Of a stretch of 64,000 bases of DNA, positions 13,421 to 52,775 are shown piece after piece. The notes under the pieces are model-generated. The model saw nothing but the letters and a program-made list of their open reading frames with translations, made no database searches and was not told where the DNA came from. Position 1 is the stretch's first letter. Each line of letters begins with the position of its first letter. Source of the stretch: Limimonas halophila (GTDB lineage: Bacteria; Pseudomonadota; Alphaproteobacteria; Kiloniellales; Rhodovibrionaceae); NCBI RefSeq assembly GCF_900100655.1, contig NZ_FNCE01000002.1:248001-312000 (forward strand), given 5' to 3'. The position numbers were made by a program, and so were the translations under genes.

Positions 13421-14308
13421 ATGGCTCGGGTACGCACCGCCGTCATCCCCGTCGCGGGGTTGGGAACCCGCATGCTTCCGGCCGCCAAAGCGATTCCGAA
13501 GGAAATGCTGCCGGTCGTGGACCGGCCGCTGATCGAGCACACCGTGGCCGAAGCGCGTGCCGCCGGCATGGAGCGCATCGTCCTCGTGACGGGGCAGGGC
13601 GGGTCCGCCGTGGTTGACCACTTCGATCGCGCGCCGGAACTCGAAGACGCGCTCTCAAAGGCGGGCAAAACGGAGACCCTTGAGCAAACGAACCGGCACG
13701 CCGATCGCGGCGGCGAAATCATCAGCGTCCGCCAGGCGAGAAAGCTGGGGCTCGGCCACGCCGTGTGGTGCGCGCATCGCGTTGTCGGCGACGAGCCCTT
13801 CGCGGTGATGCTCCCCGACGACCTCATCCTGGGCGAGCCGCCGTGCCTCAGTGAGCTTGTCGCCGTCCACGACCGGCTGGGCGGCAACGTGGTCAGCGTT
13901 GAGGAGGTGGCTGCCGAGGCCACAAGCCGGTACGGGATCCTCGACGTCACCGCCGACGACGGCACGGTGGCAGCCTCCCAGGGCGTCGTGGAAAAGCCGG
14001 CCCCCGAGGTCGCGCCGTCCCGGCTGGGGGTGGTCGGGCGCTACGTGCTCGATCCGGGTGTCATGCGCGCGCTGGCCGACCAGCCGGCCGGCGCGGGCGG
14101 TGAAATCCAGTTGACCGATGCCATCGCGCGCACCTTGCCACAAACACCACTCCACGGCGTGCGTTTCAGCGGACACCGCTACGACTGCGGCAGCAAGGCC
14201 GGCTTCGTCCAGGCGTTCCTGGCCGTGGCACTTGAACATCCCGACACGGCCGCCGCGGCCCGCGCCGAAATGGCCCGCCACGCGCTCAAGCAAACGGTGT
14301 CGGCATGA
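13421..14308 (+). CDS. galU: UTP-glucose-1-phosphate uridylyltransferase
   Basis: Makes UDP-glucose from UTP and glucose-1-phosphate for polysaccharide synthesis in the cytoplasm. At 295 residues it is full length. The nucleotidyltransferase signature GLGTRMLPAAKAIPKEMLPV at residues about 10-29 is exact, followed by VDRPLIEHTVAEA, and the sugar-binding region VVEKP is present. GGGAGAG precedes the ATG. Its stop overlaps the start of the next gene (ATGA), so UDP-glucose synthesis is coupled to hexose-phosphate isomerisation. Both genes lie just downstream of the pilus operon with a 130-base gap. Confidence 0.95.
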   Translation: MARVRTAVIPVAGLGTRMLPAAKAIPKEMLPVVDRPLIEHTVAEARAAGMERIVLVTGQGGSAVVDHFDRAPELEDALSKAGKTETLEQTNRHADRGGEIISVRQARKLGLGHAVWCAHRVVGDEPFAVMLPDDLILGEPPCLSELVAVHDRLGGNVVSVEEVAAEATSRYGILDVTADDGTVAASQGVVEKPAPEVAPSRLGVVGRYVLDPGVMRALADQPAGAGGEIQLTDAIARTLPQTPLHGVRFSGHRYDCGSKAGFVQAFLAVALEHPDTAAAARAEMARHALKQTVSA

Positions 14309-15714
14309 ACGACGTGAACGAGATGGGCACCGCCCACCGGCTGGACCCGAGCATCCTGCGTGCCTATGACGTGCGCGGAATCGTGGGCGAGACGCTGACC
14401 ACGGGGGATGCTCGCGCGCTCGGCCGCGCCTTCGCCACCACGATCCGCCGCGAGGGCGGCGCGCGCGTGGCGCTGGGTTACGACGGTCGCCTGTCGTCGC
14501 CGGACCTCGCGGCGGCGGTCGCGGACGGGCTGTGCGCCGGCGGCGTCGACGTGCTCGACATTGGGCGCGGCCCGACGCCGATGCTCTACTTCGCCGTACA
14601 CGAGACCGAGGCGGACGGCGGCATCCAGGTCACCGGGTCCCACAACCCGCCCGAGCACAACGGCTTCAAGCTCATGCGCGGGCTGGAAACCCTGCACGGC
14701 GACGCCATCCAGGAACTCGGCCGCATCGCGGCGGAAGGCGCGTACACCGACGGTAGCGGCCAGCGGCACGCAATGCCGGTTCACGATCGCTACGTGGCGC
14801 GCGTGCTTGCCGATGCGCCCGGACGGGGCGGGCTCCGCGTCGCGTGGGATCCCGGCAATGGCGCCACAGGGGCTGTCCTCGCCGAGGTGCTCGCGGGCTT
14901 GCCGGGGGAGCACCATGTCATCAACGGGGAAGTAGACGGCCGCTTTCCGGCGCATCACCCGGACCCGACCGTCCCCGAGAACCTGGAGCAGCTGCGCGCC
15001 ACGGTGCAGGAGCGCGGGTGCGATCTCGGCTTCGCCTTCGACGGCGACGGAGACCGGCTCGGCGTGGTCGACCGGCAGGGCCGCGTGCTCTGGGGCGACG
15101 AGATCATGCTGCTGATCGCCCGCGATATCCTGGCCGACCGGCCGGGCGCCCCCATTATCGCGGACGTAAAAGCCAGTCGGGTGCTGTTCGACGGAATCGC
15201 GGAAGCCGGCGGTGAGCCCGTGATGGGCCGGACCGGCCATTCGCTGGTGAAGGCGGAGATGCGCCGTCGGTCCGCACCGTTCGCGGGCGAGATGAGCGCG
15301 CATCTCTTCTTCGCCGACCGCTGGTACGGCTTCGACGACGGCCTCTATGCAGCTGTGCGCGTGCTGGACATCCTCGCCCGAACGGACCAGGACCTTGCCG
15401 CCTTCAAGGACAGCCTTCCGGCCGTGGCCAACACCCCGGAAATCCGCATCCCCTGCGACGGGTCGCGGAAGTGGGCGGCCATCGCCGAGGCGGAACAGCG
15501 CCTGGCGGAAGCCGGCGCGCAGGTCACAGCCATCGACGGGGTGCGCGTGGACACGGCCGATGGCTGGTGGTTGCTGCGCGCATCCAACACGCAGGACGTT
15601 CTCGTGGCGCGCTGCGAGGGCTGGGATGCTGATGCGCTGGAGCGGCTCAAAGCTGCGGTGAGCGATCAGCTGACACGCAGCGGTGTCGCCGTGCCAGCGG
15701 AGCTCGCGGCCTGA
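14305..15714 (+). CDS. Phosphomannomutase/phosphoglucomutase (AlgC/ManB type)
   Basis: Interconverts hexose-6- and hexose-1-phosphates through a phosphoserine intermediate. The 469-residue protein keeps the four mutase loops. The catalytic serine loop is GIQVTGSHNPPEHNGFKL, the Mg2+ loop FAFDGDGDRLGVV, the sugar loop GEMSAHLFF (Ala where SGH is usual) and the phosphate-binding loop LLRASNTQDVLV. The third loop's SAH and the fourth loop's QD in place of TP/EP are conservative oddities. The RAYDVRGIVGETLT start is typical of the AlgC group. Coupled by a 4-base overlap to galU; it probably supplies glucose-1-phosphate (and mannose-1-phosphate) to the nucleotide-sugar enzymes here and near 44-55 kb. 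Confidence 0.92.
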   Translation: MNDVNEMGTAHRLDPSILRAYDVRGIVGETLTTGDARALGRAFATTIRREGGARVALGYDGRLSSPDLAAAVADGLCAGGVDVLDIGRGPTPMLYFAVHETEADGGIQVTGSHNPPEHNGFKLMRGLETLHGDAIQELGRIAAEGAYTDGSGQRHAMPVHDRYVARVLADAPGRGGLRVAWDPGNGATGAVLAEVLAGLPGEHHVINGEVDGRFPAHHPDPTVPENLEQLRATVQERGCDLGFAFDGDGDRLGVVDRQGRVLWGDEIMLLIARDILADRPGAPIIADVKASRVLFDGIAEAGGEPVMGRTGHSLVKAEMRRRSAPFAGEMSAHLFFADRWYGFDDGLYAAVRVLDILARTDQDLAAFKDSLPAVANTPEIRIPCDGSRKWAAIAEAEQRLAEAGAQVTAIDGVRVDTADGWWLLRASNTQDVLVARCEGWDADALERLKAAVSDQLTRSGVAVPAELAA

Positions 15715-35134: not shown

Positions 35135-35147
35135 CGATACTCTCCCT

Positions 35148-38100
35148 TCACGCGCCCGATTGGACGTGGCCGGCGGACTGGTATTGTTTCGTGCTTTCCG
35201 GATCTTCCAGCCAGTCCACGGTCGCCATCTTGCGCACGACGATGAATTCGTCGCGGTTGGAGCCCACCGTGCCGTAATAGTTGAAGAAGTAGCTGAGCTG
35301 GGCGTAGCCGCCGATCATGTGCGTCGGCTTCACGACCGCACGCGTAACGGAGTTGTGGATGCCGCCGCGCGTGCCCGTAAGCTCGGAGCCCGGCACGTTC
35401 ACGATCTTCTCCTGGGCGTGGTACATGAGCACCATGCCCTCCTTGACGCGCTGGGAGACCACCGCGCGCGCCGTCAGCGCCCCGTTGGCGTTGTAGGCCT
35501 CGATCCAGTCGTTGTCCTCGATGCCCACCTTCTGGGCGTCGCGCTCGGAAATCCACACGATGGGCCCGCCGCGCGAGAGCGTGAGCATCAAGAGGTTGTC
35601 GGTGTAGGTTGAGTGGATGCCCCACTTCTGGTGCGGCGTGATGAAGTTGAGCACGATTTCGCCGTGCCCGTTGTCGTGCGTGCCCTGGACCGGCGCGATC
35701 GTCTTGGTGTCCACCGGCGGCTTATAGACGCACAGGGCTTCGCCGAACGCCCGCATCCAGGGATGATCCTGGTAGAGCTGTTGCCGCCCGCTGAGCGTGC
35801 GCCACGGGATCATCTCGTGGACGTTCGTGTAGCTGCCGTTGTAGCTGACCTTCTCGCTTTCAACGCCGGACCAGATGGGCGAGGAGATGATTTTGCGCGG
35901 CTGCGCCGTGATGTCGTGGAGCTGGATATGCTCCTCCTCGCGCCCGTCGGCGAGGTGGGCGTGCTCGCGGCCCGTGCGCTTTTCCAGGTCGTGCCACGCT
36001 TTCGCCGCGACCCCGCCGTTTGTCTCCGGGGCCAGCGAGAGCACGGTGTCGCAGGCCTGCCGGTCGGTTTCCATCACCGGCCGGCCCGCCGTGGGCCCCT
36101 TGCGCACGCTGCCGTTGAGCTTGCGCAGGTAGTCGATCTCCTCGTTCGTGTCCCAGGACAGGCCCTTGCCGCCGTTGCCGAGCTGGTCCATCAGCGGCCC
36201 GACGGAGGTGAAGCGCGCGTAGACGTTGGGATAGTCGCGCTCGACGACCTTGATGGCGGGCATCGTCACGCCCGGCTGGGCCTCGCACTCGCCCTTGTGC
36301 CACTCCTTCACGTCCTTGGGCTGGCCCAGTTCGGCGGGGGAATCGTGCTGGAGCGGGCTGAGGACGATGTCCTGCTCCTTGCCCAGCACCTCCGGCGCCA
36401 CCTCGGAGAACTTGGCGGCGATCGACTTGTAGATGTCCCAGTCCGTGCGGCTTTCCCACACCGGGTCCACTGCCGGGTTCAGCGGATGGACGAAGGGGTG
36501 CATGTCGGAGGTGTTGAGGTCCGACTTCTCGTACCACGTGGCCGTGGGCAGCACGACGTCGGAATAGAGGCAGGTCGTGCACATGCGGAAGTCGAGCGTG
36601 CACAGCAGATCCAGCTTGCCTTCCGGCGCCTCCTCGTGCCAGGCGACCTCGCGCGGTTTCTGCTCGCCCGTATGGCCCAGATCCTTGCCCTGAAGCCCGT
36701 GCGTCGTGCCCAGCAGGTGCTTGAGGAAGTATTCGTGGCCCTTGCCGCTGGAGCCCAGCAGGTTGGAGCGCCAGACGAAGAGATTGCGCGGGAAGTTGTT
36801 GGGGTGGTCCGGGTCCTCGCAGGCGAAGCCCAGGTCGCCGCGCGTCAGCTTGTCCACGACGTGGGAGACGGGATCGGTACCCGCGTCCCTGGCCTCGCGC
36901 GCCACGTTCAGCGGGTTGCGGTTGAGCTGCGGCGCCGACGGCAGCCAGCCCATGCGCTCGGCGCGGACGTTGTAGTCGATCAGGCTGTCGCGGTTCCACT
37001 CGCCCTCGGGCGCGGTGGGTGACAGCAGCTCGGACACCGGCAGCTTCTCGTACCGCCACTGATTGGTATGGGCGTAGAAGAAGCTGGTGCCGTTCATGTG
37101 CCGCGGCGGGCGGTGCCAGTCCAGCGCGAAGGCCACGGCCGCCCAACCCGTCTGCGGGCGCACCTTTTCCTGGCCGACGTAGTGCGACCAGCCGCCGCCC
37201 GACTTGCCGACCGTGCCGCACATCACCAACAGATTGATGATGCTGCGGTAGATCATGTCCTGGTGGTACCAGTGGTTCAGGCCCGCCCCGAGGATGACCA
37301 TCGAGCGGCCCTCGGTGCGGTCGGCGTTCTTGGCGAAGGCGCGCGCCACCTCGATCACGCGCTTGCGCGGCACGCCCGTGACCTGTTCCTGCCACGCCGG
37401 GGTGTAGGGCACGTCGTCGTCATAGGAGGTCGCGGCGTTCTCGCCGCCCAGGCCGCGGTCCACGCCGTAGTTGGCGGCGAAGAGGTCGAAGACGGTGGTG
37501 ACGAGCGTTTCCGTGCCGTCGGCCAGGGTGACGCGCTTCACCGGCACCTGGCGCGTGAGCACCTCGTCGTGATCCGTGCCGGTGAAGTAATCGTGGTGGC
37601 GGTCGCCGAAGTAGGGGAAGCGCACGGGCGCGCTGTGGTCGCGGTCGTGCAGCGTGGTCAGGCGCAGCTCGACGTCGCGGTCCCGGCCGTCCTTCTCCTC
37701 CAGGTTCCAGTGGCCGTCCGAACTCCAGCGGAAGCCGATGGAGCCGCGCGGAACCACGATCTCGCCCGTCTTGCGGTCGTACGCGACCGTCTTCCAGTCG
37801 GCATTCTCCTGCTCGCCCAGCGCATCGGCGAAGTCGCTCGCGCGAAGCAGGCGCCCGCCCGTGTAGCCGTCGCCCTGCGGGTCCAGGCGCACCAGCTTGG
37901 GGAAGTCGGTGTAGCGCCGGCAGTAGTCCTGGAAGTAGTCGGACTGCCGATCCAGGTGGAATTCGCGCAGGATGACGTGGCCCATCGCCATGCCCAGCGC
38001 GGCGTCCGTGCCCTGCTTGGGCGAGAGCCAGAGGTCGCCGAACTTCGAGGCTTCCGAGTAGTCCGGCGTGATGACGACGCTCTTGGCGCCCTTGTAGCGC

Positions 38101-38909
38101 GCTTCGGTGTAGAAGTGCGCGTCGGGCGTGCGCGTCTGCGGCACGTTGGAGCCCCAGATCAGCAGGAAGCCCGCGTTGTACCAGTCCGCGCTCTCGGGCA
38201 CGTCGGTCTGCTCGCCCCAGGTCTGCGGCGAGGACGGCGGCAGGTCGCAGTACCAGTCGTAGAAGGACAGGCACGTCCCGCCGAGCAGCGAGAGGTAGCG
38301 CGTGCCCGCCGCGTAGGAGAGCATCGACATCGCCGGGATGGGCGAGAAGCCCGCCACGCGGTCCGGCCCGTAAGACCGGACGGTGTAAGCGTTGGCTGCC
38401 GCCACCAGCTCGGTCGCCTCGTCCCAGTCCACGCGCACGAAGCCGCCAAGGCCGCGGCGCTGTTTGTAGGACTGCGCCTTTTCCGGGTCCTCGACGATCG
38501 ACTTCCACGCAGCTACGGGGCTGTGCGTCTTGCGCGCCTCGCGCCACAGCGCCACGAGCTGCTGGCGCATCATGGGGTACTTCAGGCGGTTGCCCGAGTA
38601 GATGTACCAGGAATAGCTCGCCCCGCGGGAGCAACCGCGCGGTTCGTGGTTGGGCATGTCCGGGCGCGTGCGTGGGTAGTCCGTCTGCTGCGTCTCCCAG
38701 GTAACGATCCCGCCCTTCACGTGGATCTTCCACGAGCACGATCCGGTGCAGTTTACACCGTGGGTGGAACGCACGACCTTGTCGTGCTGCCAACGGTTGC
38801 GGTATCCGTCCTCCCACGAGCGGTCCTCGTTGGTGACGATCCCGTGGCCGTCGGAAAACTGGCCCACGTTCTTGCGGAAGAAGGTCAGCCGGTCGAGAAA
38901 GTGGCTCAT
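35148..38909 (-). CDS. narG: Respiratory nitrate reductase alpha subunit, catalytic
   Basis: The 1253-residue catalytic subunit reduces nitrate to nitrite at a Mo-bis-MGD centre facing the cytoplasm. Near the N-terminus HGVNCTGSCSWKIHVKGG and, later, GCSRGASYSWYIYS supply the His/Cys ligands of the FS0 [4Fe-4S] cluster. The Asp Mo-ligand region FYDWYCDLPPSSPQTWGEQT is intact. No twin-arginine signal is cleaved in this class, and none is needed. It is membrane-attached through NarHI. Follows the second narK by 22 bases. Confidence 0.98.
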   Translation of the reverse strand: MSHFLDRLTFFRKNVGQFSDGHGIVTNEDRSWEDGYRNRWQHDKVVRSTHGVNCTGSCSWKIHVKGGIVTWETQQTDYPRTRPDMPNHEPRGCSRGASYSWYIYSGNRLKYPMMRQQLVALWREARKTHSPVAAWKSIVEDPEKAQSYKQRRGLGGFVRVDWDEATELVAAANAYTVRSYGPDRVAGFSPIPAMSMLSYAAGTRYLSLLGGTCLSFYDWYCDLPPSSPQTWGEQTDVPESADWYNAGFLLIWGSNVPQTRTPDAHFYTEARYKGAKSVVITPDYSEASKFGDLWLSPKQGTDAALGMAMGHVILREFHLDRQSDYFQDYCRRYTDFPKLVRLDPQGDGYTGGRLLRASDFADALGEQENADWKTVAYDRKTGEIVVPRGSIGFRWSSDGHWNLEEKDGRDRDVELRLTTLHDRDHSAPVRFPYFGDRHHDYFTGTDHDEVLTRQVPVKRVTLADGTETLVTTVFDLFAANYGVDRGLGGENAATSYDDDVPYTPAWQEQVTGVPRKRVIEVARAFAKNADRTEGRSMVILGAGLNHWYHQDMIYRSIINLLVMCGTVGKSGGGWSHYVGQEKVRPQTGWAAVAFALDWHRPPRHMNGTSFFYAHTNQWRYEKLPVSELLSPTAPEGEWNRDSLIDYNVRAERMGWLPSAPQLNRNPLNVAREARDAGTDPVSHVVDKLTRGDLGFACEDPDHPNNFPRNLFVWRSNLLGSSGKGHEYFLKHLLGTTHGLQGKDLGHTGEQKPREVAWHEEAPEGKLDLLCTLDFRMCTTCLYSDVVLPTATWYEKSDLNTSDMHPFVHPLNPAVDPVWESRTDWDIYKSIAAKFSEVAPEVLGKEQDIVLSPLQHDSPAELGQPKDVKEWHKGECEAQPGVTMPAIKVVERDYPNVYARFTSVGPLMDQLGNGGKGLSWDTNEEIDYLRKLNGSVRKGPTAGRPVMETDRQACDTVLSLAPETNGGVAAKAWHDLEKRTGREHAHLADGREEEHIQLHDITAQPRKIISSPIWSGVESEKVSYNGSYTNVHEMIPWRTLSGRQQLYQDHPWMRAFGEALCVYKPPVDTKTIAPVQGTHDNGHGEIVLNFITPHQKWGIHSTYTDNLLMLTLSRGGPIVWISERDAQKVGIEDNDWIEAYNANGALTARAVVSQRVKEGMVLMYHAQEKIVNVPGSELTGTRGGIHNSVTRAVVKPTHMIGGYAQLSYFFNYYGTVGSNRDEFIVVRKMATVDWLEDPESTKQYQSAGHVQSGA

Positions 38910-38931
38910 CAGGAGTCTCCAGGTCGCGGGC

Positions 38932-40329
38932 TCAGCAGCGGATCTCGGCGTTGCGGCGGGTGTAGAACCACCACGTCAGGGCCGTGCACACCGCGTAAAA
39001 GGCGATGAAGAGGTAGAGCGCCGGCTCGGCGCCGCCCGTGTACTCGATCGACGTGCCGTAGGCCTTGGGGATGACGAAGGCACCGTAGGCAGCGATCGCG
39101 GAGGTGAAGCCGATCGTGGCGGCGCTTTCCCGCTCCGCCTCGCGCGTCTGCTCCGCCGCGCTCGTGTCGGGCATCAGCCGTGGCACTTCCTTGCGGAAGA
39201 TCACGGGGATCATCTGAAAGGTGGAGGCGTTGCCCACGCCCGTGGCGAAGAAGAGGATCATGAACATCGCGAAGAAGCCCCAGAAGGCGCCGGGCTGCTC
39301 GCGGATGCCCAGGAAGAAGAGCACACCCAGGACGGCGGCGATCATCACCACGAAGGTCCAAAGCGTGACGCGCCCGCCGCCGAACTTGTCGGAGATCCAG
39401 CCCGTCGCCGCGCGGCTGAGTGCGCCCACCAGCGGGCCCAGGAAGACGTACTGCAGCGCACCCACGTCGGGGAACTGGTTGGTCGCCAGCAGTGGGAAGC
39501 CGGCCGAATAGCCGATGAAGGAGCCGAACGTGCCGGTGTAGAGCACGCACATGATCCAGTTGTGCTTGCGCCGGAAGATCACCGCCTGATCCGAGAAGGA
39601 CGCGCGCGCGCTGGCGATGTCGTTCATGCCGAACCAGGCGGCGATCGTGGCGATCACCAGAAAGGGCACCCAGATGAAGCCGGCGTTCTGCAGCCAGATC
39701 TTGCCGCCCTCGGACACCTCCTGCGGTGGGCCGCCAAGGCTGCCGAAAACCGAGAAGGTGATGACGATGGGCACGATCAGCTGCATGACGCTGACGCCCG
39801 CGTTGCCCAGGCCGGCGTTGAGGGCGAGGGCGTTGCCCTTCGACTTGCGCGGGAAGAAAAAGGAGATGTTGGCCATCGACGAGGCGAAGTTCCCGCCGCC
39901 GAAGCCGCACAACAGTGCCAGCACCAGGAACACCCAGTAGGGCGTGTCCGGGTTCTGGACGGCGATCCCGATCCCCACGGCCGGGATCAGCAGCGAGGCC
40001 GTGGAAATCGCCGTCCAGCGCCGGCCGCCGAAGATGGGCACCATGAAGCTGTAGAAGATGCGCAGCGTGGCCCCGGAGAGCCCCGGCAGCGAGCTGAGCC
40101 AGAAGAGCTGGTTGGTGGTGTAGTTGAAGCCGATCGCGCCGAGCTTGGCGACCACGACGCTCCACACCAGCCAGACACAGAACGCCAGCAACAGGCAGGG
40201 AATGGAGATCCAGAGGTTGCGCTGGGCGACCTTGTAGCCGGCGTCCTCCCAGAACTGCTCGTCGTCCGGCCGCCAGTCGGTGAGCACCTGGCCGCCCTTG
40301 GGAACCGCGTGGCTCGTTGCGTTGGTCAT
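38932..40329 (-). CDS. Nitrate/nitrite transporter, NarK2 type (MFS)
   Basis: A 465-residue transporter with 12 predicted helices. The nitrate signature in helix 5 is seen as GFGGGNFASSMANISFFFP followed by GNALALNAGLGNAGVSVMQL. It starts with about 45 hydrophilic residues including DWRPDDEQFWE. This type is usually the nitrate/nitrite antiporter. In Paracoccus relatives the NarK1 and NarK2 halves are fused; here they are two genes 30 bases apart. Confidence 0.92.
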   Translation of the reverse strand: MTNATSHAVPKGGQVLTDWRPDDEQFWEDAGYKVAQRNLWISIPCLLLAFCVWLVWSVVVAKLGAIGFNYTTNQLFWLSSLPGLSGATLRIFYSFMVPIFGGRRWTAISTASLLIPAVGIGIAVQNPDTPYWVFLVLALLCGFGGGNFASSMANISFFFPRKSKGNALALNAGLGNAGVSVMQLIVPIVITFSVFGSLGGPPQEVSEGGKIWLQNAGFIWVPFLVIATIAAWFGMNDIASARASFSDQAVIFRRKHNWIMCVLYTGTFGSFIGYSAGFPLLATNQFPDVGALQYVFLGPLVGALSRAATGWISDKFGGGRVTLWTFVVMIAAVLGVLFFLGIREQPGAFWGFFAMFMILFFATGVGNASTFQMIPVIFRKEVPRLMPDTSAAEQTREAERESAATIGFTSAIAAYGAFVIPKAYGTSIEYTGGAEPALYLFIAFYAVCTALTWWFYTRRNAEIRC

Positions 40330-40359
40330 GATGGACGTCTTTCCGTTCTCGTGGCGCCG

Positions 40360-41736
40360 TCAGCGGGCGGGTTGGGTGGTGTTGGAGCCGGTCTTACCGC
40401 TCGTGCCGCGCTCTCCGGCCCGGCGCACGCGCACGGGCTGGTCCGGCAGGTCGGAGAGCTGCGTTTCCTTGGCGAGCTGCGGGTACTTGCGCCGCTCCAT
40501 GAGGCGGATGGCGACGTGCATCCACACGAAGCTGACGGCGACGATGATGAACATCAGCTGGAAGGCGGAGGTCCAAACGCCCGTCACGTCGATCAGGCCG
40601 CCGAAGGCGATGGGGAGGACGAAGCCGCCCAGGCCGCCGATCATGCCCACGAGGCCGCCCACGGACCCGACGTGGTCCGGGTAGTAGACGGGGATGTGCT
40701 TGTAGACGGCCGCCTTGCCGAGCGACATCACGAAGCCGAGCACCACACTCAGCGCGACGAACATCCACAGCGGCACGCCGAAGCTGAAGCGGATCGGCCC
40801 GTCCACGCCCTGCACGACGTACTGCGTCTGCGGATAGCTCATGAGGAAGAGACAGACGAGCGAGACGATGAAGGTGAGGTACATCACCGCCCGCGCGCCC
40901 CAGCGGTCGGACATCCACCCGCCCAGAGCGCGGAAAACCGAGGCGGGGAGCGAATACACGGCGGCGAGCGTGCCCGCCAGCGCCAGCGAGGTGTCGTACG
41001 CGCCCGTGTAGTAGCGCGGCAGGTAGGAGGCGAGCGCGACGAAGCCGCCGAAGACGAAGAAGTAGTACGTGGCGAAGCGCCACACCTGGATGTACTTCAA
41101 CGGCTCCAGCTGCATCATCGTCGAGGCCGTGGAACCTTCTCCCCTTCGCCGCGCGATGGTCGTCGGGTCCTCTTTGGCGAAGATAAAGAAGGCAACGCCC
41201 ATAATGGCGAGCACCACGGCGTAGACCTGCGCCGTCTGCTCCCAGCCCAGCGCGACCACGAGGAAGGGCGCGCCGAAGTTGGTTACGGCGGCGCCGACGT
41301 TGCCCGCGCCGAAGATGCCCAGCGCCGTGCCCTGGCGTCCCTTCTCAAACCATTTCGAGGTGTAGGCGATGCCGACAATGAAGGAGCCGCCGGCCAGCCC
41401 AACGCCCAGGGCCGCGACGAGGAAGACCAAGTAGGTCTCCACCATCGACAGGAGCCAAGTGCACACAGCCGTCGTGAGCATTTGGATGGTGAAGACGAGG
41501 CGGCCGCCGAACTGCTCCGTCCACACACCCAGGAAGATACGACTGATCGACCCCGTCAGCACCGGCGTGGCGACCAGGATGCCAAACTGGGTTTCCGACA
41601 GGCCCAGGTCTTCCTTGATTTGCACGCCGATGATGGAAAAGATCGTCCAGACTGCGAAACAGATCGTGAACCCCAGCGTGCTCAACCCAAGTGCCCGATA
41701 TTGTTGCTTGGGGGTGACCCCGTCCAAGGTGTTCAT
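40360..41736 (-). CDS. Nitrate/nitrite transporter, NarK1 type (MFS)
   Basis: A 458-residue major-facilitator protein with 12 helices. It carries GLSETQFGILVATPVLTGS, the GGSFIVGIAYTSKWFEKGRQ block and GTALGIFGAGNVGAAVT, the nitrate-transporter signature of the NarK1 class, usually proton-coupled nitrate uptake. AGGA eight bases before the ATG at 41736 supports this start over one 16 codons earlier. First gene of the nar operon; an FNR-like box lies about 92 bases upstream. Confidence 0.92.
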   Translation of the reverse strand: MNTLDGVTPKQQYRALGLSTLGFTICFAVWTIFSIIGVQIKEDLGLSETQFGILVATPVLTGSISRIFLGVWTEQFGGRLVFTIQMLTTAVCTWLLSMVETYLVFLVAALGVGLAGGSFIVGIAYTSKWFEKGRQGTALGIFGAGNVGAAVTNFGAPFLVVALGWEQTAQVYAVVLAIMGVAFFIFAKEDPTTIARRRGEGSTASTMMQLEPLKYIQVWRFATYYFFVFGGFVALASYLPRYYTGAYDTSLALAGTLAAVYSLPASVFRALGGWMSDRWGARAVMYLTFIVSLVCLFLMSYPQTQYVVQGVDGPIRFSFGVPLWMFVALSVVLGFVMSLGKAAVYKHIPVYYPDHVGSVGGLVGMIGGLGGFVLPIAFGGLIDVTGVWTSAFQLMFIIVAVSFVWMHVAIRLMERRKYPQLAKETQLSDLPDQPVRVRRAGERGTSGKTGSNTTQPAR

Positions 41737-41827
41737 CGGTGCGGTCCTTGCGCCGTTCCCAGGAATGAACCGGGGTGCGCGCACCCCTTATCGCCACGAG
41801 CGCTACGGAGAATTGGGGCGCAAGCGT

Positions 41828-44265: not shown

Positions 44266-45036
44266 ATGAAGGTTGTGATCCTGGCAGGCGGTGCGGGTAC
44301 ACGCCTGGCGGAAGAGACGAAGGTGAAGCCGAAGCCGATGGTGGAGATCGGCGGCCACCCCATTCTTTGGCACATCATGCGCCATTACTATCACTACAAT
44401 TTCAAGGAATTCATCGTCGCTCTTGGCTACAAGGGTGACTATATAAAAGAATACATGGAACATTATTGCAAAAACAACGCAAACGTTAAATTGGATTTCG
44501 AGACGGGATCGATCGAACACACGCGCCGAAGCACATTCGATTGGGTCGTGGAACTCGTCGACACGGGCCAAAAGACCCTGACGGGCGGGCGAATCAAGCG
44601 TCTGGCACCGTATCTTGGCAATGAAACCTTCATGCTGACGTGGGGGGACGGGGTGGCCGATGTCGATCTGGACAAGCTGTTGGCCTTCCACCGGTCCCAC
44701 GGTCGGCTCGCGACGGTGACGGCGGTTCGTCCGCCGGCACGCTACGGCTACATGGAATTCAACGGCAACGAGGTGACAGCATTCGAGGAGAAGACGCAGG
44801 CGCGCGAAGGCTGGATCAACGGCGCCTTCTTCGTCCTCGAACCAGGGGTGCTGGAGTACATCCCCGGCGACTACACGATGTTCGAACACGAGCCGCTGCA
44901 AAACCTGGCTCGTGACGGGCAACTGATGGCGTACAAGCACGACTCGTTTTGGCAGTGCATGGATACGCTTCGGGAAAAACACATCCTCGAGCGCTTGTGG
45001 GAAAGCAATCAGGCGCCGTGGAAGATTTGGGAATGA
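44266..45036 (+). CDS. rfbF: Glucose-1-phosphate cytidylyltransferase
   Basis: Makes CDP-glucose, the entry to CDP-linked deoxysugars. 256 residues, canonical length, with [70 protein letters not shown] and [15 protein letters not shown]. No CDP-glucose 4,6-dehydratase (rfbG) follows, which is unusual. It is four bases upstream of an SDR epimerase gene and leads a run with the three methyltransferases. Confidence 0.95.
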
Positions 45037-45040
45037 TGCC

Positions 45041-46084
45041 ATGCGGATCTTGGTGACGGGGCACGAAGGCTATATCGGCGGCGTCCTGGTTCCGATGCTG
45101 CTGGAGCGGGGACACAGCGTCGTCGGGCTGGATTGCGGCTTGTTCCGGGATTGCACATACCTGGAGCCGGCGGTCAGCGTCCCCACCATCGACCGGGACA
45201 TCCGGGATGTTTGCCCGCAGGACGTCGACGGCTTCGACGCCGTCATCCACTTGGCGGGACTGTCGAACGACCCCCTCGGCGATCTCGACCCCACGTTGAC
45301 CGCGGCTATTAACCACGCGGCTTCGGTGCGGCTGGCGCGCATCGCCAAGACCGCCGGGGTGCCGCGTTTCGTGTTCTCGTCGTCCTGCAGCACCTACGGC
45401 GCCAGCGGCGCAGATCTTCTGGACGAGACGAGCCCCTTCAATCCGGTGACCCCCTACGGCAGCTCCAAGGTGGCGGTCGAGCGCGACGTGGGCGCGATGG
45501 CGGACGAGTCCTTCAGTCCCACGTTCCTGCGCAACGCCACGGTGTACGGCGTGGCGCCGCGGATCCGCTTCGACCTGGTGGTGAACAACCTCACGGCCTG
45601 GGCCTTCACCACGGGTGACGTGCATCTGAAGAGCGACGGCACGCCATGGCGGCCGGTGGTCCACGTCCGCGACGTTGCCACCGCGTTCGCGCGCGTCGTC
45701 GAAGAGCGTCGCGAAGTGGTTCACAATGAAGCGTTCAACGTGGCGCGCGCCGCAGACAATCTGCAAATCCGCGACATCGCCCAGGCGGTCGCCGAGATCG
45801 TCCCGAACGCGCAGGTCACCCTGGCCGAGGGCGCGCAGGCGGATGCCCGCTGTTACCGTGTCGATCCCGGCAAGCTGACCCGCACCACGGGTTTCGAGCC
45901 CGTCTGGAGCGTGCGCGACGGCATTGCCGAACTGTACGAAACCTATCGCCGCGTGGGCCTAAAGCTCGAAGAGTTCGAAGGCGAGCGCTACAGCCGGATC
46001 CACTACCTGAAAAAGCTCATGCGGGACGGGCGGGTCGACCCGAGCCTGCGGCTCCAGCGCGGGTACGCCGAAGCTTTGCAATGA
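45041..46084 (+). CDS. NAD-dependent sugar epimerase/dehydratase (extended SDR)
   Basis: A 347-residue extended short-chain dehydrogenase acting on a nucleotide sugar. It has the Rossmann motif [28 protein letters not shown], the catalytic Ser/Thr region [13 protein letters not shown] and YGSSK (Tyr-x-x-x-Lys). Its closest general resemblance is to UDP-glucose 4-epimerase-like and GDP/CDP-hexose SDRs. By position after rfbF it may act on a CDP-sugar, perhaps in place of the missing dehydratase. Substrate not determinable from sequence alone. Confidence 0.88.
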
Positions 46085-46158
46085 CCCTGCCATGGGCGGC
46101 CGGCTAAGGCGCCGGGTCGCAGGGCCCTGCGCATGGATTGTTCAAAAAGGGGTTGGGA

Positions 46159-47409
46159 ATGGCGACAACGGAGGTGACGTGCCGGTCGTGCGGGACAGGC
46201 CCGCTGCACGAAATCCTGTCGCTGGGAGACAGCCCGCTGGCTGATCGCCTGCTGACGCCGGAACAGTGCCACGAGCCCGAGCCCACGGCGCCGCTGGACG
46301 TCGTGCTCTGTTCCGCCTGCTCACTGATGCAGCTGACTCATTCGGTGCCCCCCGAAGAACTTTTCTGCCGCGACTACCCCTACTACTCCTCCGTGTCGCC
46401 CACGCTGCTCGCGCATTTTCAAGCCAGCGCCGAGGCGATCATCGAGGACCGGCGGCTCGACGCCAATTCGCTCGTCGTCGAGCTGGCCAGCAACGACGGC
46501 TACATGCTTCGCCACTTCCACCGGGCCGGCATCCCGGTGCTGGGCATCGACCCGGCCGACGGCCCCGCCAGGGCAGCTCAGGGGGCGGGCATCCCCACGC
46601 GCACCACGTTTTTTACTCAGGGCTTGGCCAAGAGCCTGCGCGACGAGGAAGGTCTTCGGGCCGACATCATCCTCGCCAACAACGTGTTGGCCCATGTGCC
46701 GGACCTGAACGGCTTCGTGGCCGGAATCCGAACTCTGCTGAAGCCGGACGGGCAGGCCGTCATCGAGGTTCCCTACGCCGTCGACCTGGTCGACAAGCTG
46801 GAATTCGACACGATCTACCACCAGCATTTGTGCTACTTCACGGTCACGGCGCTCGACCAACTGTTCCGTCGGCACGGCCTGTACCTGAACCATGTCGACC
46901 GCACCGAGATCCACGGCGGTTCGCTCCGGCTCTTCGTGGAACACACCGAACGCCCCGACACCTCTGTCACCGATCTCCTGCGGTGGGAGCGGACGCGCGG
47001 CATCACCACGCTGGCGTACTTCACCGATTTCGCCGCGCGCACAGAAAACCTGCGCCGGCAGCTCATGACGCTGCTCGACGGCATCAAGGCGGAAGGGCGC
47101 CGGATCGTCGGCTACGGGGCGGCTGCCAAGGCCACGACCTTGATGAATTTCTGCGGCATCGACGGCCGCCATCTCGACTACATCGTGGACCTCAGTCCGC
47201 ACAAACAGGGCCTGTACACGGGCGGCAATCATCTGCCGATCCGGAAACCGGACTGCCTGGTGACGGACCGCCCGGACTACACGCTGATCCTGGCGTGGAA
47301 CTTCGCGGACGAGATCATCGCCCAGCAACGACAGTACCTCGACGTAGGCGGTCAGTTCATCGTGCCGCTGCCGGAGCCGCGCCTCGTCAACGCGCCGGCG
47401 ATCGCCTGA
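46159..47409 (+). CDS. Sugar C-methyltransferase, first of three paralogues
   Basis: A 416-residue SAM-dependent methyltransferase with the three-part build of NDP-hexose C-methyltransferases. An N-terminal zinc-type domain has CRSCG (about 8-12) and CSACSLMQL (about 51-59). The Rossmann core has VVELASNDGYMLRHF and GIDPADGPA. A C-terminal domain has IVGYGAAAKATTLMNFCGID and IVDLSPHKQGLYTGG. The catalytic-type motif IYHQHLCYF is intact, as in TylC3/TcaB9 enzymes. The ATG at 46159 follows AAGGGG; a TTG 21 bases earlier is less likely. It lies 74 bases after the epimerase gene. Confidence 0.88.
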   Translation: MATTEVTCRSCGTGPLHEILSLGDSPLADRLLTPEQCHEPEPTAPLDVVLCSACSLMQLTHSVPPEELFCRDYPYYSSVSPTLLAHFQASAEAIIEDRRLDANSLVVELASNDGYMLRHFHRAGIPVLGIDPADGPARAAQGAGIPTRTTFFTQGLAKSLRDEEGLRADIILANNVLAHVPDLNGFVAGIRTLLKPDGQAVIEVPYAVDLVDKLEFDTIYHQHLCYFTVTALDQLFRRHGLYLNHVDRTEIHGGSLRLFVEHTERPDTSVTDLLRWERTRGITTLAYFTDFAARTENLRRQLMTLLDGIKAEGRRIVGYGAAAKATTLMNFCGIDGRHLDYIVDLSPHKQGLYTGGNHLPIRKPDCLVTDRPDYTLILAWNFADEIIAQQRQYLDVGGQFIVPLPEPRLVNAPAIA

Positions 47410-47477
47410 CGCACCGGGACGTTCCCGCGCGTGATGCAAAAAGCTGCTCGCGTGCCATGATCGAAGGGTTTGTTGGC

Positions 47478-48737
47478 ATGGGGATGGAGACGGTGGACCA
47501 CAACCCGGACGTGTACGGCGGGCGCCAGGACGGGCATGCGAAAAACCGGCCGGATTCCTGTCCGAACTGCGGCGACAGCGGCATGACGCCGATCTACGAG
47601 TTGCGGGATGTACCGATCCACAGCATGATCCTGTTGCGCGATCCGGTGGAAGCGCAGGCCTTTCCCACGGGGACCATACGCCTTGCGGCCTGCGGCACCT
47701 GCGGTTTCGTCACCAACACGGCCTTCGATCCGGCACTCGAACGCTACGGCGCGGACTACGAAGCAAGCCAGAGCTTTTCGCCGACGTTCAACACCTTCCA
47801 CGAGCGTCTGGCGGAGGATTTGGTTTCACGCCACGATCTGGCCGGTCGCAGCGTGCTCGAAATCGGGTGCGGGCAGGGGGAATTCCTCCACATCCTGGCG
47901 CACCACGGGGCCAACCCGGTCTACGGCTTCGACCCCGCCTATCGCGGTCCGGCGACACAGGTGGTGGCGGGAAATACGGTCCACGCCGTCGCCGACTTCT
48001 TCACCGAAGCAAGCGGCACCATCGGTGCCGACTTCGTGTGCTGCAAGCAGACTCTGGAACACATCCCGGATACCTTCGATTTCGTGCACATGGTACGGCG
48101 GGCGATCGGCGACAGGCCGGACACGGGCGTTTTCTTCCAAGTCCCTGATTTTCAACGGATTGTCGACGAAGGAGCGTTCTGGGACGTCTATTACGAGCAT
48201 TGCTCGTACTTCACACAGCCGGCGCTCGTGCGCCTGTTCGAGGCGGCCGGCTTCGAGGTTCAGGCCAGCCGGGTCGAATACGATGGCCAGTACCTCATGA
48301 TTGAAGCACGGCCGACGCCAAGTCCATCCAGCGACGCAACGACGCCGGCATCCGCGAGCGACCAACTTCCCGACCTGCGCGGCTTTGCGGAGCGGTGTGC
48401 GCGCCAGATCGCGGCGTGGCGGACTTGGTTCGACGCGTCGGGCGCGCAAGGGCTGCGCACGGCGCTCTGGGGCGGCGGGTCGAAGGCCGTCGCCTTCCTC
48501 ACCAGCATCGGCGCCCACCAAGACGTGACGTGTGCGTTCGACGTCAACCCGCGAAAGGCCGGCACATATCTTCCCCAGTCCGCGTGCCCCGTCATGACCC
48601 CGGAAGCACTGGACCGAATCCGGCCCGACCAGATCGTCGTCATGAACCCGATCTACATGCCGGAGATCCGCGACGAACTGGCACATCGCGGCCACACAGC
48701 GGAACTGATCCCAGTGACGCACTTCGCGCCAACGTGA
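47478..48737 (+). CDS. Sugar methyltransferase, second paralogue
   Basis: About 419 residues with the same three-domain order: CPNCGDSG and CGTCGFVTNTAF at the N-terminus, SAM core VLEIGCGQGEFLHIL and YGFDPAYRGP, a catalytic-type YYEHCSYFTQPAL, and C-terminal ALWGGGSKAVAFLTSIG with FDVNPRKAGTYLP. Identity with its neighbours is low, so these are old paralogues. Start is uncertain: ATG 47478 has GAAGGG nine bases upstream; ATGs at 47457 and 47484 are alternatives. Confidence 0.85.
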   Translation: MGMETVDHNPDVYGGRQDGHAKNRPDSCPNCGDSGMTPIYELRDVPIHSMILLRDPVEAQAFPTGTIRLAACGTCGFVTNTAFDPALERYGADYEASQSFSPTFNTFHERLAEDLVSRHDLAGRSVLEIGCGQGEFLHILAHHGANPVYGFDPAYRGPATQVVAGNTVHAVADFFTEASGTIGADFVCCKQTLEHIPDTFDFVHMVRRAIGDRPDTGVFFQVPDFQRIVDEGAFWDVYYEHCSYFTQPALVRLFEAAGFEVQASRVEYDGQYLMIEARPTPSPSSDATTPASASDQLPDLRGFAERCARQIAAWRTWFDASGAQGLRTALWGGGSKAVAFLTSIGAHQDVTCAFDVNPRKAGTYLPQSACPVMTPEALDRIRPDQIVVMNPIYMPEIRDELAHRGHTAELIPVTHFAPT

Positions 48738-48759
48738 AGAAATGGCGGAGTTGTGGATT

Positions 48760-49926
48760 ATGGAGTCGTGCCCAATTTGTTCTTCGCAAACCATTCAGGG
48801 CATGGCAACGATCACCGGCGTGCCCACGCACTGCAATGTCCTGCTCGAGAGCCAACGCGAAGCCCTCGAAAGCCCGACCGGGACTCTGGAGCTGGTCGCG
48901 TGCGGCGACTGCGGCCACGTTTTCAACCGGGCGTTCGACGCCCGCCGCATGACCTATGAAGGGGTCTACGAGAATTCGCTTCACTGGTCACCGCGCTTTC
49001 AAGACTACGCCACCCGCTTGGCCGAACGGCTGATTGCGGACTGCGATCTGCGGGGTAAAGACGTCCTCGAGGTCGGCTGCGGGCGCGGCGATTTTTTGCA
49101 AGAGATCTGCAAGGCCGGCGCCAATACCGGGCTGGGCTTCGATCCAAGTGCGCCCCTGGCCGACGACCCCGGTGCAACGGATCGGGTCACGTTCGTTCGC
49201 GACTACTTCAGCCCGGAGAGCTACCCGCGCAGCCGAGGCGATCTCGTGATCTGCCAGCACGTGCTGGAGCACGTCGACGACCCCGCGGCATTTGTCGACC
49301 TCCTCGCGGATGCGCTGAAGACTCCCCGATCGTGCTTGTACATCGAGGTTCCGAACGGGCTTGTGACAGTTCGCCACGGGGCCATCTGGGACCTGATCTA
49401 CGAGCACGTCTGGTACTTTTGTGAACGCTCGCTCCGGATGCTGCTGGCCCGACGTGGCCTGTCGACATACTGGGTCGAGGCGACCTTCGGCGGGCAGTTC
49501 CTGTCGGCTCTGGTCGGGCCGGCCGAGGACGCGGCCCCGGGGCTGGTCCGTGGGGAAGCGCCGACACGGGCGGACGTGGCAGCTTTTCAAGGCCATCTGG
49601 ACCGGATGATCGCTAGCTGGCGCGAGAGCCTCGAACTCGCGAGCGCGTCCGGCACTGTGGTCGTCTGGGGTGCAGGGTCCAAGAGCGTGACCTTCCTGAA
49701 TTTAACGCGCCCGGAAAGCCGCAGCATCCGCGCCGTGGTGGACGTCAACCCGCACAAGCAGGGCAAATACATCCCGGAAAGCGGCCACGAAATCGTCGCG
49801 CCGGACCAGCTTCAACGCCTCGATCCGGACGTTGTGCTGGTCATGAACCCGCTCTACCTCGACGAGGTGCGCCGTACGCTCGCGGATTTGGACCTTCACC
49901 CCCAGGTTCGCAGCGTCGTCAGCTGA
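48760..49926 (+). CDS. Sugar methyltransferase, third paralogue
   Basis: About 388 residues, again three-domain: MESCPICSSQ and CGDCGHVFNRAF, SAM core VLEVGCGRGDFLQEI and GLGFDPSAPL, HVLEHVDDP, the YEHVWYF motif, and C-terminal VWGAGSKSVTFLNL with VVDVNPHKQGKYIPESG. I chose ATG 48760 (GGAG nine bases upstream); ATG 48742, four bases after the previous stop, is the alternative. Each of the three could methylate a different position or an O rather than C atom; sequence does not decide. Confidence 0.85.
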   Translation: MESCPICSSQTIQGMATITGVPTHCNVLLESQREALESPTGTLELVACGDCGHVFNRAFDARRMTYEGVYENSLHWSPRFQDYATRLAERLIADCDLRGKDVLEVGCGRGDFLQEICKAGANTGLGFDPSAPLADDPGATDRVTFVRDYFSPESYPRSRGDLVICQHVLEHVDDPAAFVDLLADALKTPRSCLYIEVPNGLVTVRHGAIWDLIYEHVWYFCERSLRMLLARRGLSTYWVEATFGGQFLSALVGPAEDAAPGLVRGEAPTRADVAAFQGHLDRMIASWRESLELASASGTVVVWGAGSKSVTFLNLTRPESRSIRAVVDVNPHKQGKYIPESGHEIVAPDQLQRLDPDVVLVMNPLYLDEVRRTLADLDLHPQVRSVVS

Positions 49927-49933
49927 GGCGTGC

Positions 49934-51310
49934 TCACCGCAACGCCGGGTTCGGCGGCTTGGCCCTGTCCCGGCCCATCGCGCTGCGCAGGCCCGCCACA
50001 AGCTGTGAGATCAGCGCATCCACGCGGCCCCCGTCGTCGGCCTCAATGACGACGCGCACGTGACTGTTGGCCAAGGCGGGGGCGACGAGCAGCCGGCCGC
50101 TGGCTCCCAGTGCCGCGCGGACACGGGCAATTACGCCACGCGTCGCGTCCAGTTCCAGCACGGCGGGGTCCGCCGGAACGTAAACCTCGTGTTGGGGCAC
50201 CATTTCGAAGGGGTGGAGCAGGGTGCTCGCCGGACACCGCGCTTCGGCCAGCCGGGCGAGCGCCACCAGAGCGGCCATCAGCCCGTCCGCGACCGGAACG
50301 TGGTCGCGCAGAATGTAGTGACCCGAGGTGCTGGCCGCCAGGCCGCAGTCGCTCGTCCAGAGCGTATGCGGCAGGTGGGGTGGCTCCGCCGAAGTGCGGA
50401 TCAACCCGAGGCCATTGGCTTGCAACCAGCGCTCCAGGCCGATGTTGGCCTTGTCGCAACCGACGGCGGCCGGACGGGTCAAATGGCCGTGATCACGCGC
50501 GAACGCTGCGATCACGGCGAACAGTTCATCGGGTTCGGCGAGCTCGCCCGTTTCGTCAACCACAAGCGCCCGCTGTCCGTCGCCACCGATGGCCACGCCT
50601 ACGTCCGCCCGGTGCGCGGTTACGGCATCCTGGAGGGTCCACGGGGCTTCCACGCCAACGCCGCGATTGATGTTCCTGCCGTTGGGCTGACAGCCGAGTT
50701 CGACAACCTCGGCGCCGAGGCTGCGCAGCAGGGTCGGGGCAATGGCACAGGCCGCGCCGTGCGCTCCATCCAGGACCACGCGCATGCCGTCCAGCCCGAT
50801 CCCGGGTGGCAGGAGGGCGCGAAGCGCCGCGTCGTACGCGGCGGTCGGCGCGGGATGGACGTCGATGCTGCCCAACTCGGCAGACGAAATGCCCATCTCG
50901 TGATCGCCATCGGCCAAGCCGGCCTCGATCGCGGCCTGTTCGGCAGCACGGATGGGCCGCCCCTCCGCATTCACGAAGGCAAGCCCGTTGATGGAGTACA
51001 TCTCGTCGCCACCCGAAACCATCACGCCAAGGCTGGCGCAGGACACACGCGTCTCCAGCGCAACAGCGCCGTAGGGCACCGGCCCCAACAGCTTCACGCG
51101 CGCCCCGACAGCCATGAAGCCGGCCGCCAGTGCCTGTTCGAGCATGCCGCCCGACAGTCGCGTGTCGCGACCGACAACGACCGTCACGCCGTCATGGTCG
51201 CGGACCATGTGAGCGATCGCAGCCATGGCCAGTTTGACGACACCCGAGGCGGTGAGCGGGTCACGGTTCGCTGTGCCCCGCACACCTTCCGGTGAAAAGA
51301 TGCTGTTCAC
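49934..51310 (-). CDS. Degenerate phosphoglucosamine/phosphohexomutase homologue, probable pseudoenzyme
   Basis: 458 residues clearly of the alpha-D-phosphohexomutase fold, closest in layout to GlmM: start NSIFSPEGVRGTANRDPLTA, then VVVGRDTRLSGGMLEQALAAG. But the active-site loops are altered. Where GlmM has SASHNP with the phosphoserine, this has SGGDEM with Gly at the Ser position. The DGDGDR metal loop reads GGDGQR. The sugar loop keeps SGH but loses the Glu (ASTSGHYI). The phosphate loop RxSGTEPxIRV is ALANSHVRV. The frame is intact and codon use normal, so it is not simple decay. GTG at 51310, with GGAG upstream, gives the canonical N-terminus. A regulatory or binding role is inferred. 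Confidence 0.82.
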   Translation of the reverse strand: MNSIFSPEGVRGTANRDPLTASGVVKLAMAAIAHMVRDHDGVTVVVGRDTRLSGGMLEQALAAGFMAVGARVKLLGPVPYGAVALETRVSCASLGVMVSGGDEMYSINGLAFVNAEGRPIRAAEQAAIEAGLADGDHEMGISSAELGSIDVHPAPTAAYDAALRALLPPGIGLDGMRVVLDGAHGAACAIAPTLLRSLGAEVVELGCQPNGRNINRGVGVEAPWTLQDAVTAHRADVGVAIGGDGQRALVVDETGELAEPDELFAVIAAFARDHGHLTRPAAVGCDKANIGLERWLQANGLGLIRTSAEPPHLPHTLWTSDCGLAASTSGHYILRDHVPVADGLMAALVALARLAEARCPASTLLHPFEMVPQHEVYVPADPAVLELDATRGVIARVRAALGASGRLLVAPALANSHVRVVIEADDGGRVDALISQLVAGLRSAMGRDRAKPPNPALR

Positions 51311-51716
51311 CTTGCTGACTCCACCGCCCAATCCGTCGCATCGATTGATCAGATGTTCCGGAGATTTGGATTTTTGAAACAACGACCCTCGGCAGACACC
51401 CTGTAACAACGAGACGCGATCGCTTTTGAAGCGCCTCATATTGCAAATTTTTTCCTATTGAACCCAGCAATCATCGTCTTTCTTTAAGAACACTAAAGCA
51501 ACAGTAAAAATGGAATGAACTTCCGTCTCGGTCGGGTCATGAATACGTCATAGAGGGTAGGCTTTTTTTGTTTTCACCGAACACACAAGGGCGATGGATG
51601 ATTTGCCGGTGATCGCGTACCACGAAATCCGGAATCGTGGACCGGGACTCGGCGGATCACGTGACCATGACGAGGTGCGAGTGCTTCCTTCCGCACGAAG
51701 TCAAAGGGGCTTGCAT
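51311..51716. other. AT-rich divergent intergenic region
   Basis: 406 bases between the mutase homologue (leftward) and rmlB (rightward). It is visibly richer in A and T than the flanking genes, especially 51430-51570. No credible gene is seen; the open frame starting near 51594 is an upstream extension of rmlB with no family match. Promoters for both operons probably lie here, but I found no convincing -35/-10 pair. Confidence 0.45.
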
Positions 51717-52775
51717 ATGCGCATCCTGGTAACTGGCGGCATGGGGTTCATCGGTTCGGCGCTGGTCAGGCACCTCATCACGGATACTTCTCACGCCGTG
51801 GTAAACGTCGACAAGCTGACCTACGCCGCGAACCCGGACGCCGTGGAAGCGGTTACCGCATCGCCCAGGTATGTGTTCGCGCGTGGCGACATCGCGGACG
51901 CGGAGCGGATGCGCGAGATTTTCCGGCGGCATCCCCCCGATATCGTCATCAACCTGGCAGCGGAAAGCCACGTCGATCGCTCGATCGACGCGCCGATGGC
52001 GTTCTCGCGAACGAACATTCTTGGGACTCAGACCCTTTTGGACGTGGCGTTGACCCACTGGCACCACCTGCCGGCCGCGTCGCGGGCCGCGTTCCGCTTC
52101 CACCAGGTGTCCACGGATGAGGTCTACGGCTCCATGCCGGCGGGGTACCTCGCGAGCGAGGACACGCCGTACGCGCCCAATTCCCCGTACGCCGCGAGCA
52201 AGGCAGCCGCCGACCACCTCGTGCGGGCGTGGAATCGCACCTACGGGCTGCCCACCGTGATCACGAACTGCTCGAACTGCTACGGACCGTGGCAGTTCCC
52301 GGAAAAGCTGATCCCGCTGATGGTCACCAAGGCGCTGTCCGGCGAGGCGCTACCCGTTTATGGGACGGGCGAGAACCGGCGGGACTGGCTGCACGTCGAC
52401 GACCACGTGCGCGCGCTTGTGCTCGCCGCGACGCGCGCCGAGCCCGGATCGCACTACAATATCGGGGCCTCGGGGCCGCTGCGCAATCTCGACGTGGTTC
52501 GGGCGATCTGCAGCAGCTTGGACGAGCTCGAACCCCGAGCGGACGGCCACGGCTACGCGAACCAAATCACCTTCGTGGTGGACCGGCCCGGCCACGATCT
52601 CCGCTACGCGGTGGATCCCGCGCGCATCCGGACAGACCTCGGCTGGCAGCCGGAACACGGCTTCGACGCTGGCCTCCACGAGACCGTGCGCTGGTACCTG
52701 GGGCAGGGAACCTGGTGGCGGGACATCCGCACGAACCGCTACGCGGGCGAACGCCTCGGGCAGGCCGCAAGCTGA
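51717..52775 (+). CDS. rmlB: dTDP-glucose 4,6-dehydratase
   Basis: Second enzyme of dTDP-L-rhamnose synthesis. 352 residues, extended SDR: ILVTGGMGFIGSALVRHLI, VNVDKLTYAAN, NLAAESHVDRSID, FHQVSTDEVYGSM, YAASKAAADHLVRAW (catalytic Tyr and Lys) and NCSNCYGPWQFPEKLIPL. The ATG at 51717 follows AAGGGG and gives the family's usual N-terminus. It lies 19 bases before rmlA. Confidence 0.97.
   Translation: MRILVTGGMGFIGSALVRHLITDTSHAVVNVDKLTYAANPDAVEAVTASPRYVFARGDIADAERMREIFRRHPPDIVINLAAESHVDRSIDAPMAFSRTNILGTQTLLDVALTHWHHLPAASRAAFRFHQVSTDEVYGSMPAGYLASEDTPYAPNSPYAASKAAADHLVRAWNRTYGLPTVITNCSNCYGPWQFPEKLIPLMVTKALSGEALPVYGTGENRRDWLHVDDHVRALVLAATRAEPGSHYNIGASGPLRNLDVVRAICSSLDELEPRADGHGYANQITFVVDRPGHDLRYAVDPARIRTDLGWQPEHGFDAGLHETVRWYLGQGTWWRDIRTNRYAGERLGQAAS

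Follow-up and report, generated by a model that had tools for sequence, protein, structure and literature searches.

Can a phosphohexomutase in which every active-site loop has changed still be kept by its host as a protein? This question is raised by a GlmM-like gene in the 64,000-nucleotide stretch of the Limimonas halophila genome analysed here (the window). An initial annotation had described the gene as a full-length, intact paralogue; that description and its coordinates were right, and the strand is minus (Table 1). The open reading frame spans 49934..51439 (-) and stops at 49934. The start codon is most likely the GTG at 51310..51308, which has a GGAG upstream at a gap of 8 nt. Codon periodicity is normal, with a GC content of 0.76, 0.51 and 0.81 at the three codon positions. 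Consensus scans for a promoter or terminator of the paralogue gave no match, and no sigma-70-type site was found by such a scan in the intergenic region 51311..51593. The protein contains six cysteines and four lysines, the genome's true GlmM none and eight.

Table 1. Features of the window discussed in the text, with positions in the window and replacements given relative to active GlmM proteins.
Feature	Position	Strand	Remarks
PgmG-type phosphoglucomutase/phosphomannomutase, normal	14305..15714	+	676 bits vs cut-off 600; comparison gene
Sugar nucleotidyltransferase	44266..45036	+	RfbF-like glucose-1-phosphate cytidylyltransferase by resemblance
NAD-dependent epimerase/dehydratase-like SDR	45041..46084	+	context
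C-methyltransferase MT1	46138..47409	+	PF08421 + PF13489 + PF08484
Methyltransferase MT2	47457..48737	+	context
Methyltransferase MT3	48742..49926	+	convergent with paralogue, 7 bp between stops
GlmM-family paralogue	49934..51310	-	458 aa, GTG start (most likely), TGA stop, frame intact
Phosphate-binding loop	50054..50083	-	APALANSHVR replaces RxSGTEPxxR; last Arg kept
Sugar-binding loop	50318..50338	-	AASTSGH replaces GGEQSGH; Glu327 to Ser, SGH kept
Hinge	50375..50386	-	EPPH replaces GDRY (GDRYV to EPPHL)
Metal loop	50570..50587	-	GGDGQR replaces DGDADR; 2/3 Asp lost, one Asp + Arg kept
Residue 111	50978..50980	-	Ala replaces invariant Lys (K111A; DNGIK to INGLA)
Phosphoserine loop	50999..51016	-	SGGDEM replaces SASHNP; catalytic Ser101 is Gly (S101G)
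N-terminal active-site loop	51284..51295	-	SPEG replaces GTDG; R11 and G12 kept
Intergenic region, paralogue to rmlB ORF	51311..51593		divergent, AT-rich, 46% GC
rmlB, dTDP-glucose 4,6-dehydratase	51594..52775	+	TIGR01181 443 bits vs cut-off 365; divergent from paralogue

The genome has three members of the phosphohexomutase family: glmM on contig C1, which is normal, the paralogue, and the gene at 14305, which the annotation had called a normal mutase and which indeed scores as PgmG. With a normal GlmM and PgmG present, the housekeeping activity is covered. The paralogue shares 40% identity with the genome's own GlmM and about 30% with that of B. anthracis. The superfamily fold has four domains (PF02878, PF02879, PF02880 and PF00408). 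Pfam recognised domains I-III of the paralogue above their cut-offs; domain IV had no Pfam match and is covered by the structural alignment of the predicted structure (residues 3..446), so that the protein counts as a member of the superfamily. The glmM model TIGR01455 (NCBIfam) was the top-scoring of all models at 317.8 bits, below its cut-off of 447.55, and the GEQSGH and SGTEP loops that mark the GlmM equivalog are absent.

Alignment with GlmM proteins bears out that every active-site loop is altered. The protein has neither a phosphoserine loop of the SASHNP/TASHNP type nor a DGDxDR metal loop, the signatures of the superfamily enzymes, and its catalytic residues are lost, as expected of a pseudoenzyme. 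At six catalytic positions the paralogue reads G/G/D/Q/S/A and other GlmM proteins read S/D/D/D/E/S, a set kept in all but one of about 138 other distinct GlmM proteins aligned; the changes in the paralogue are therefore far beyond chance. The exception, a GlmM from a Novosphingobium MAG (L091:8001-9323), reads SAGHNP, with the catalytic Ser changed to Gly and the other checked positions intact; this single change is possibly a sequencing or assembly error. In this family, phosphoryl transfer depends on the phosphate loop together with the Ser, the Lys and the metal Asp, and Lys111 is the general acid/base Lys of the superfamily. Judged from the sequence, loss of mutase chemistry appears near certain.

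The losses are not spread evenly. Among 97 invariant columns, defined on the first 61 relatives, the paralogue keeps 9 of the 29 in the loops (20/29 lost) and 45 of the 68 elsewhere. With columns of 97% conservation, the loops keep 11/31 against 59/92 elsewhere (Fisher p = 0.007), and the retention of scaffold residues is twice that of loop residues. Of the 32 conserved residues of domain II outside the loops, 26 are kept. Ligand-site residues that are left are R11, D244, R247, S329-G330-H331 and R419.

An AlphaFold2 model of the paralogue, built on an alignment of 52 sequences, shows the whole GlmM fold with four domains (pLDDT 85.5, pTM 0.86). Using Foldseek and VIA-align 2, the top PDB matches were the GlmM structures of B. 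anthracis, S. aureus and B. subtilis (3pdk, 6gyz and 7ojr), with a TM score of about 0.9 (best 0.91) and Z of about 50 over about 440 residues, and with numbering in register. This register argues against a relocated catalytic serine, a check proposed in the annotation, and the alignment of the predicted structure reveals none elsewhere in the protein. Because the model leans on active relatives, it speaks for compatibility of the sequence with the fold rather than for production of the protein, and a decaying copy might give a prediction that looks the same.

We searched for orthologues that share the loop changes and found none in over 700 genomes plus contig scans. The overlapping sets comprised 58 relatives, 61 genomes of the order, 3 of the family (one per genus, a thin sampling), 385 of the class and 398 of the phylum. 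Exact-word scans of genome and viral contigs, a method insensitive at moderate identity, gave no relative with these loops. An alignment-based scan of genome contigs returned at least 80 GlmM proteins, and the matches listed included none with these loops; in tblastn searches of plasmids and phages the best matches were mostly annotated GlmM with at most 40% identity, as judged by annotation and identity. The annotation had counted the absence of any such conserved orthologue against its own reading, and none was found among more than 700 genomes, only three of them from the family. As a consequence, neither conservation across species nor a proper dN/dS is available for the paralogue.

In phylogenetic trees the branch of the paralogue is extremely long. 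In an LG tree it joins a second GlmM of the related genome G002 (support 87/90, not significant), and in a mixture tree it stays at the root. None of the four alternative placements tested is rejected by AU tests (p 0.29-0.42), so that local duplication and import with an island are both compatible with the data. The G002 protein resembles the paralogue in being an extra GlmM copy within the same family and its nearest neighbour in one, non-significant, tree; it differs in retaining all catalytic residues and in its neighbourhood. This second GlmM (G002:C1:4075442-4076803; L034:8898-10304), from a related genus, is apparently active and has the sugar loop GESCGH instead of GEQSGH. Its setting is exopolysaccharide-like, with genes resembling galE, polysaccharide deacetylase and asparagine synthase.

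The paralogue does lie between a trio of methyltransferases and rmlB, as the annotation had noted, but a functional link to these genes is weak. Being transcribed in the opposite direction to both neighbours, it shares no operon with either; the rmlB protein probably starts near 51711. The order SDR-MT1-MT2-MT3 recurs in three other genomes (G239, G282 and G179), of which G239 has the cytidylyltransferase as well; no such mutase-like gene accompanies that cassette within the roughly 20 kb examined. Since the cassette occurs elsewhere without it, the paralogue is not a fixed part of the cassette. The order to which G239 belongs was represented by only 2 genomes in the orthologue search, which is thus uninformative for it. 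A CDP-glucose 4,6-dehydratase was not recognised among the neighbouring genes examined. MT1 is missing from both other genomes of the family, and for this reason the polysaccharide cluster was probably imported. Codon-bias scores are 0.07-0.35 in this cluster, 0.35-0.59 in core genes and 0.20 in the paralogue. The genome-like composition claimed for the gene thus holds for codon periodicity, whereas its codon bias is weaker than that of core genes and matches the surrounding cluster.

Whether the paralogue is kept or decaying can be judged against the genome's own GlmM. The two align over 453 residues with one gap of one residue, and no stop is present. The pS between them is 0.57, higher than the 0.49 found for GlmM between two genera of the family, and the paralogue is therefore old. 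The dN/dS is about 0.6, an upper bound because dS is saturated, against about 0.3 for pairs of true GlmM; this doubling indicates relaxed or accelerated evolution. In neutral simulations with substitutions only, run to the observed retention (about 389 neutral substitutions), the frame stayed open in 6/100 runs at genome GC and in 0/100 at 46% GC.

These values bear first on the main rival explanation, a redundant GlmM copy, perhaps island-borne, that has lost its function and drifts without having yet acquired a stop or frameshift. The missing orthologues, the dN/dS against the genome's own GlmM, the weak, island-like codon bias and the absence of MT1 from both other family genomes would all suit such a copy, and so would the slow gain of stops in GC-rich DNA, in which 6-16% of neutral runs keep an open frame. 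On the other hand, hundreds of neutral substitutions, here some 389, are expected to bring many indels, and only the one-residue gap is found. Drift would also not be expected to cluster the losses in the active-site loops, nor to spare the conserved non-loop residues of domain II. We regard drift as less likely but give it a considerable chance. The claim that the gene is kept rather than decaying therefore stands in part: near-zero indels, no stop and a preserved scaffold would fit purifying selection after catalytic loss, yet a dN/dS of about 0.6, the lack of an orthologue and the 6% of neutral frames that stay open weaken it. Because of the single one-residue indel, the absence of stops and the intact predicted fold, retention as a folded protein is the more likely reading, although unproven.

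A second explanation is that the pocket was rebuilt to bind, or act on, a different ligand such as a nucleotide sugar from one of the neighbouring dTDP- or CDP-sugar pathways, by way of new and leftover residues (D102, E103, D244, R247, H331 and R419). The loops are replaced extensively rather than by single knock-outs, some ligand-site residues remain, and rml genes and the methyltransferase cassette adjoin the gene. However, there is no set of relatives with a conserved new motif, and the transcription opposite to both neighbours and the occurrence of the cassette without the paralogue in other genomes also speak against it; we consider a new ligand improbable. Mutase activity appears very unlikely, and a sugar-phosphate mutase carrying its phosphate on S99 or S106 deserves hardly any weight, since S99, one metal-loop Asp, H331 and R419 remain but the protein no longer has the catalytic Ser, two metal Asp, Lys111, the sugar Glu or the phosphate loop, and the structural alignment is in register.

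We give about an even chance to the reading that the paralogue, an orphan within the GlmM family, is dead as a catalyst and is retained as a folded protein that performs no mutase chemistry. All loops that the reaction requires have changed, with the greater part of the scaffold residues and, in the prediction, all four domains of the fold preserved. In this family, a protein that lacks the phosphoserine, the metal site and the phosphate loop cannot convert sugar 1-phosphates and sugar 6-phosphates into one another. The rarity of indels, the lack of stops and the preference for keeping scaffold residues suggest that, for most of the paralogue's history, selection acted on it as a protein. Because the phosphate loop, the sugar-loop Glu and the metal site are gone as well, classical hexose-phosphate binding also looks unlikely on sequence grounds. 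With the chemistry and probably ligand binding lost, what remains, if the protein is functional, is protein contact, and the protein might bind or regulate the true GlmM, or else the sugar-nucleotide enzymes encoded next to it. The GlmM dimer contact is carried by domain 1, and this domain is not specially conserved in the paralogue. A tentative and rather unlikely proposal is that the protein, by pairing with the true GlmM or the adjacent nucleotide-sugar enzymes or by controlling them, steers the supply of amino sugars or deoxysugars for surface polysaccharide, without binding a sugar phosphate.

Compared with GlmM proteins of known structure (TIGR01455; 3pdk, 6gyz, 7ojr), the paralogue shares the fold, the length and many scaffold residues, and differs in the catalytic Ser, metal Asp, Lys, sugar Glu, phosphate loop and hinge. 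Another parallel is vertebrate PGM5 (aciculin), which is enzymatically inactive and kept by its host (PMC7761743). The bacterial protein would likewise be an inactive paralogue of an active phosphohexomutase, and it shares the superfamily fold (6y8x, Z 38.2 against the paralogue model). However, PGM5 is an animal PGM1 paralogue, is conserved across species and keeps its ligand loops, whereas the bacterial paralogue has no ligand loops left. Herring PGM5 retains the Ser and the metal loop and binds glucose-1-phosphate (PMC7761743). The annotation's suggestion that the paralogue binds a sugar phosphate is disfavoured, since its phosphate loop, sugar-loop Glu and metal site are gone.

A precedent for GlmM acting through protein contact is found in B. 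subtilis and S. aureus, where GlmM inhibits the c-di-AMP cyclase CdaA by contact, independent of domain 4 (PMC8573169); that GlmM, in contrast, is an active enzyme. Regulation of the CdaA type by the paralogue is ruled against by the absence of a diadenylate-cyclase domain (PF02457) from the genome. The annotation's claim of a role of a new kind is thus overstated, given the non-enzymatic PGM5 and the control of CdaA by GlmM at the protein level. In the open-access literature we found no paper that pairs 'phosphoglucosamine mutase' with 'pseudoenzyme'. If made and functional, the paralogue would be a bacterial GlmM scaffold used without chemistry and, unlike PGM5, without ligand loops; as an orphan, it could just as well be a gene nearing its loss.

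Two further observations concern other parts of the window. Positions 33617-41784 contain the respiratory nitrate reductase genes narG and narH beside genes for two MFS transporters; the next gene noted, at 41998, encodes a Crp-family regulator. Between 57501 and 60000, the GC content falls locally to 58%, compared with 67% for the window.
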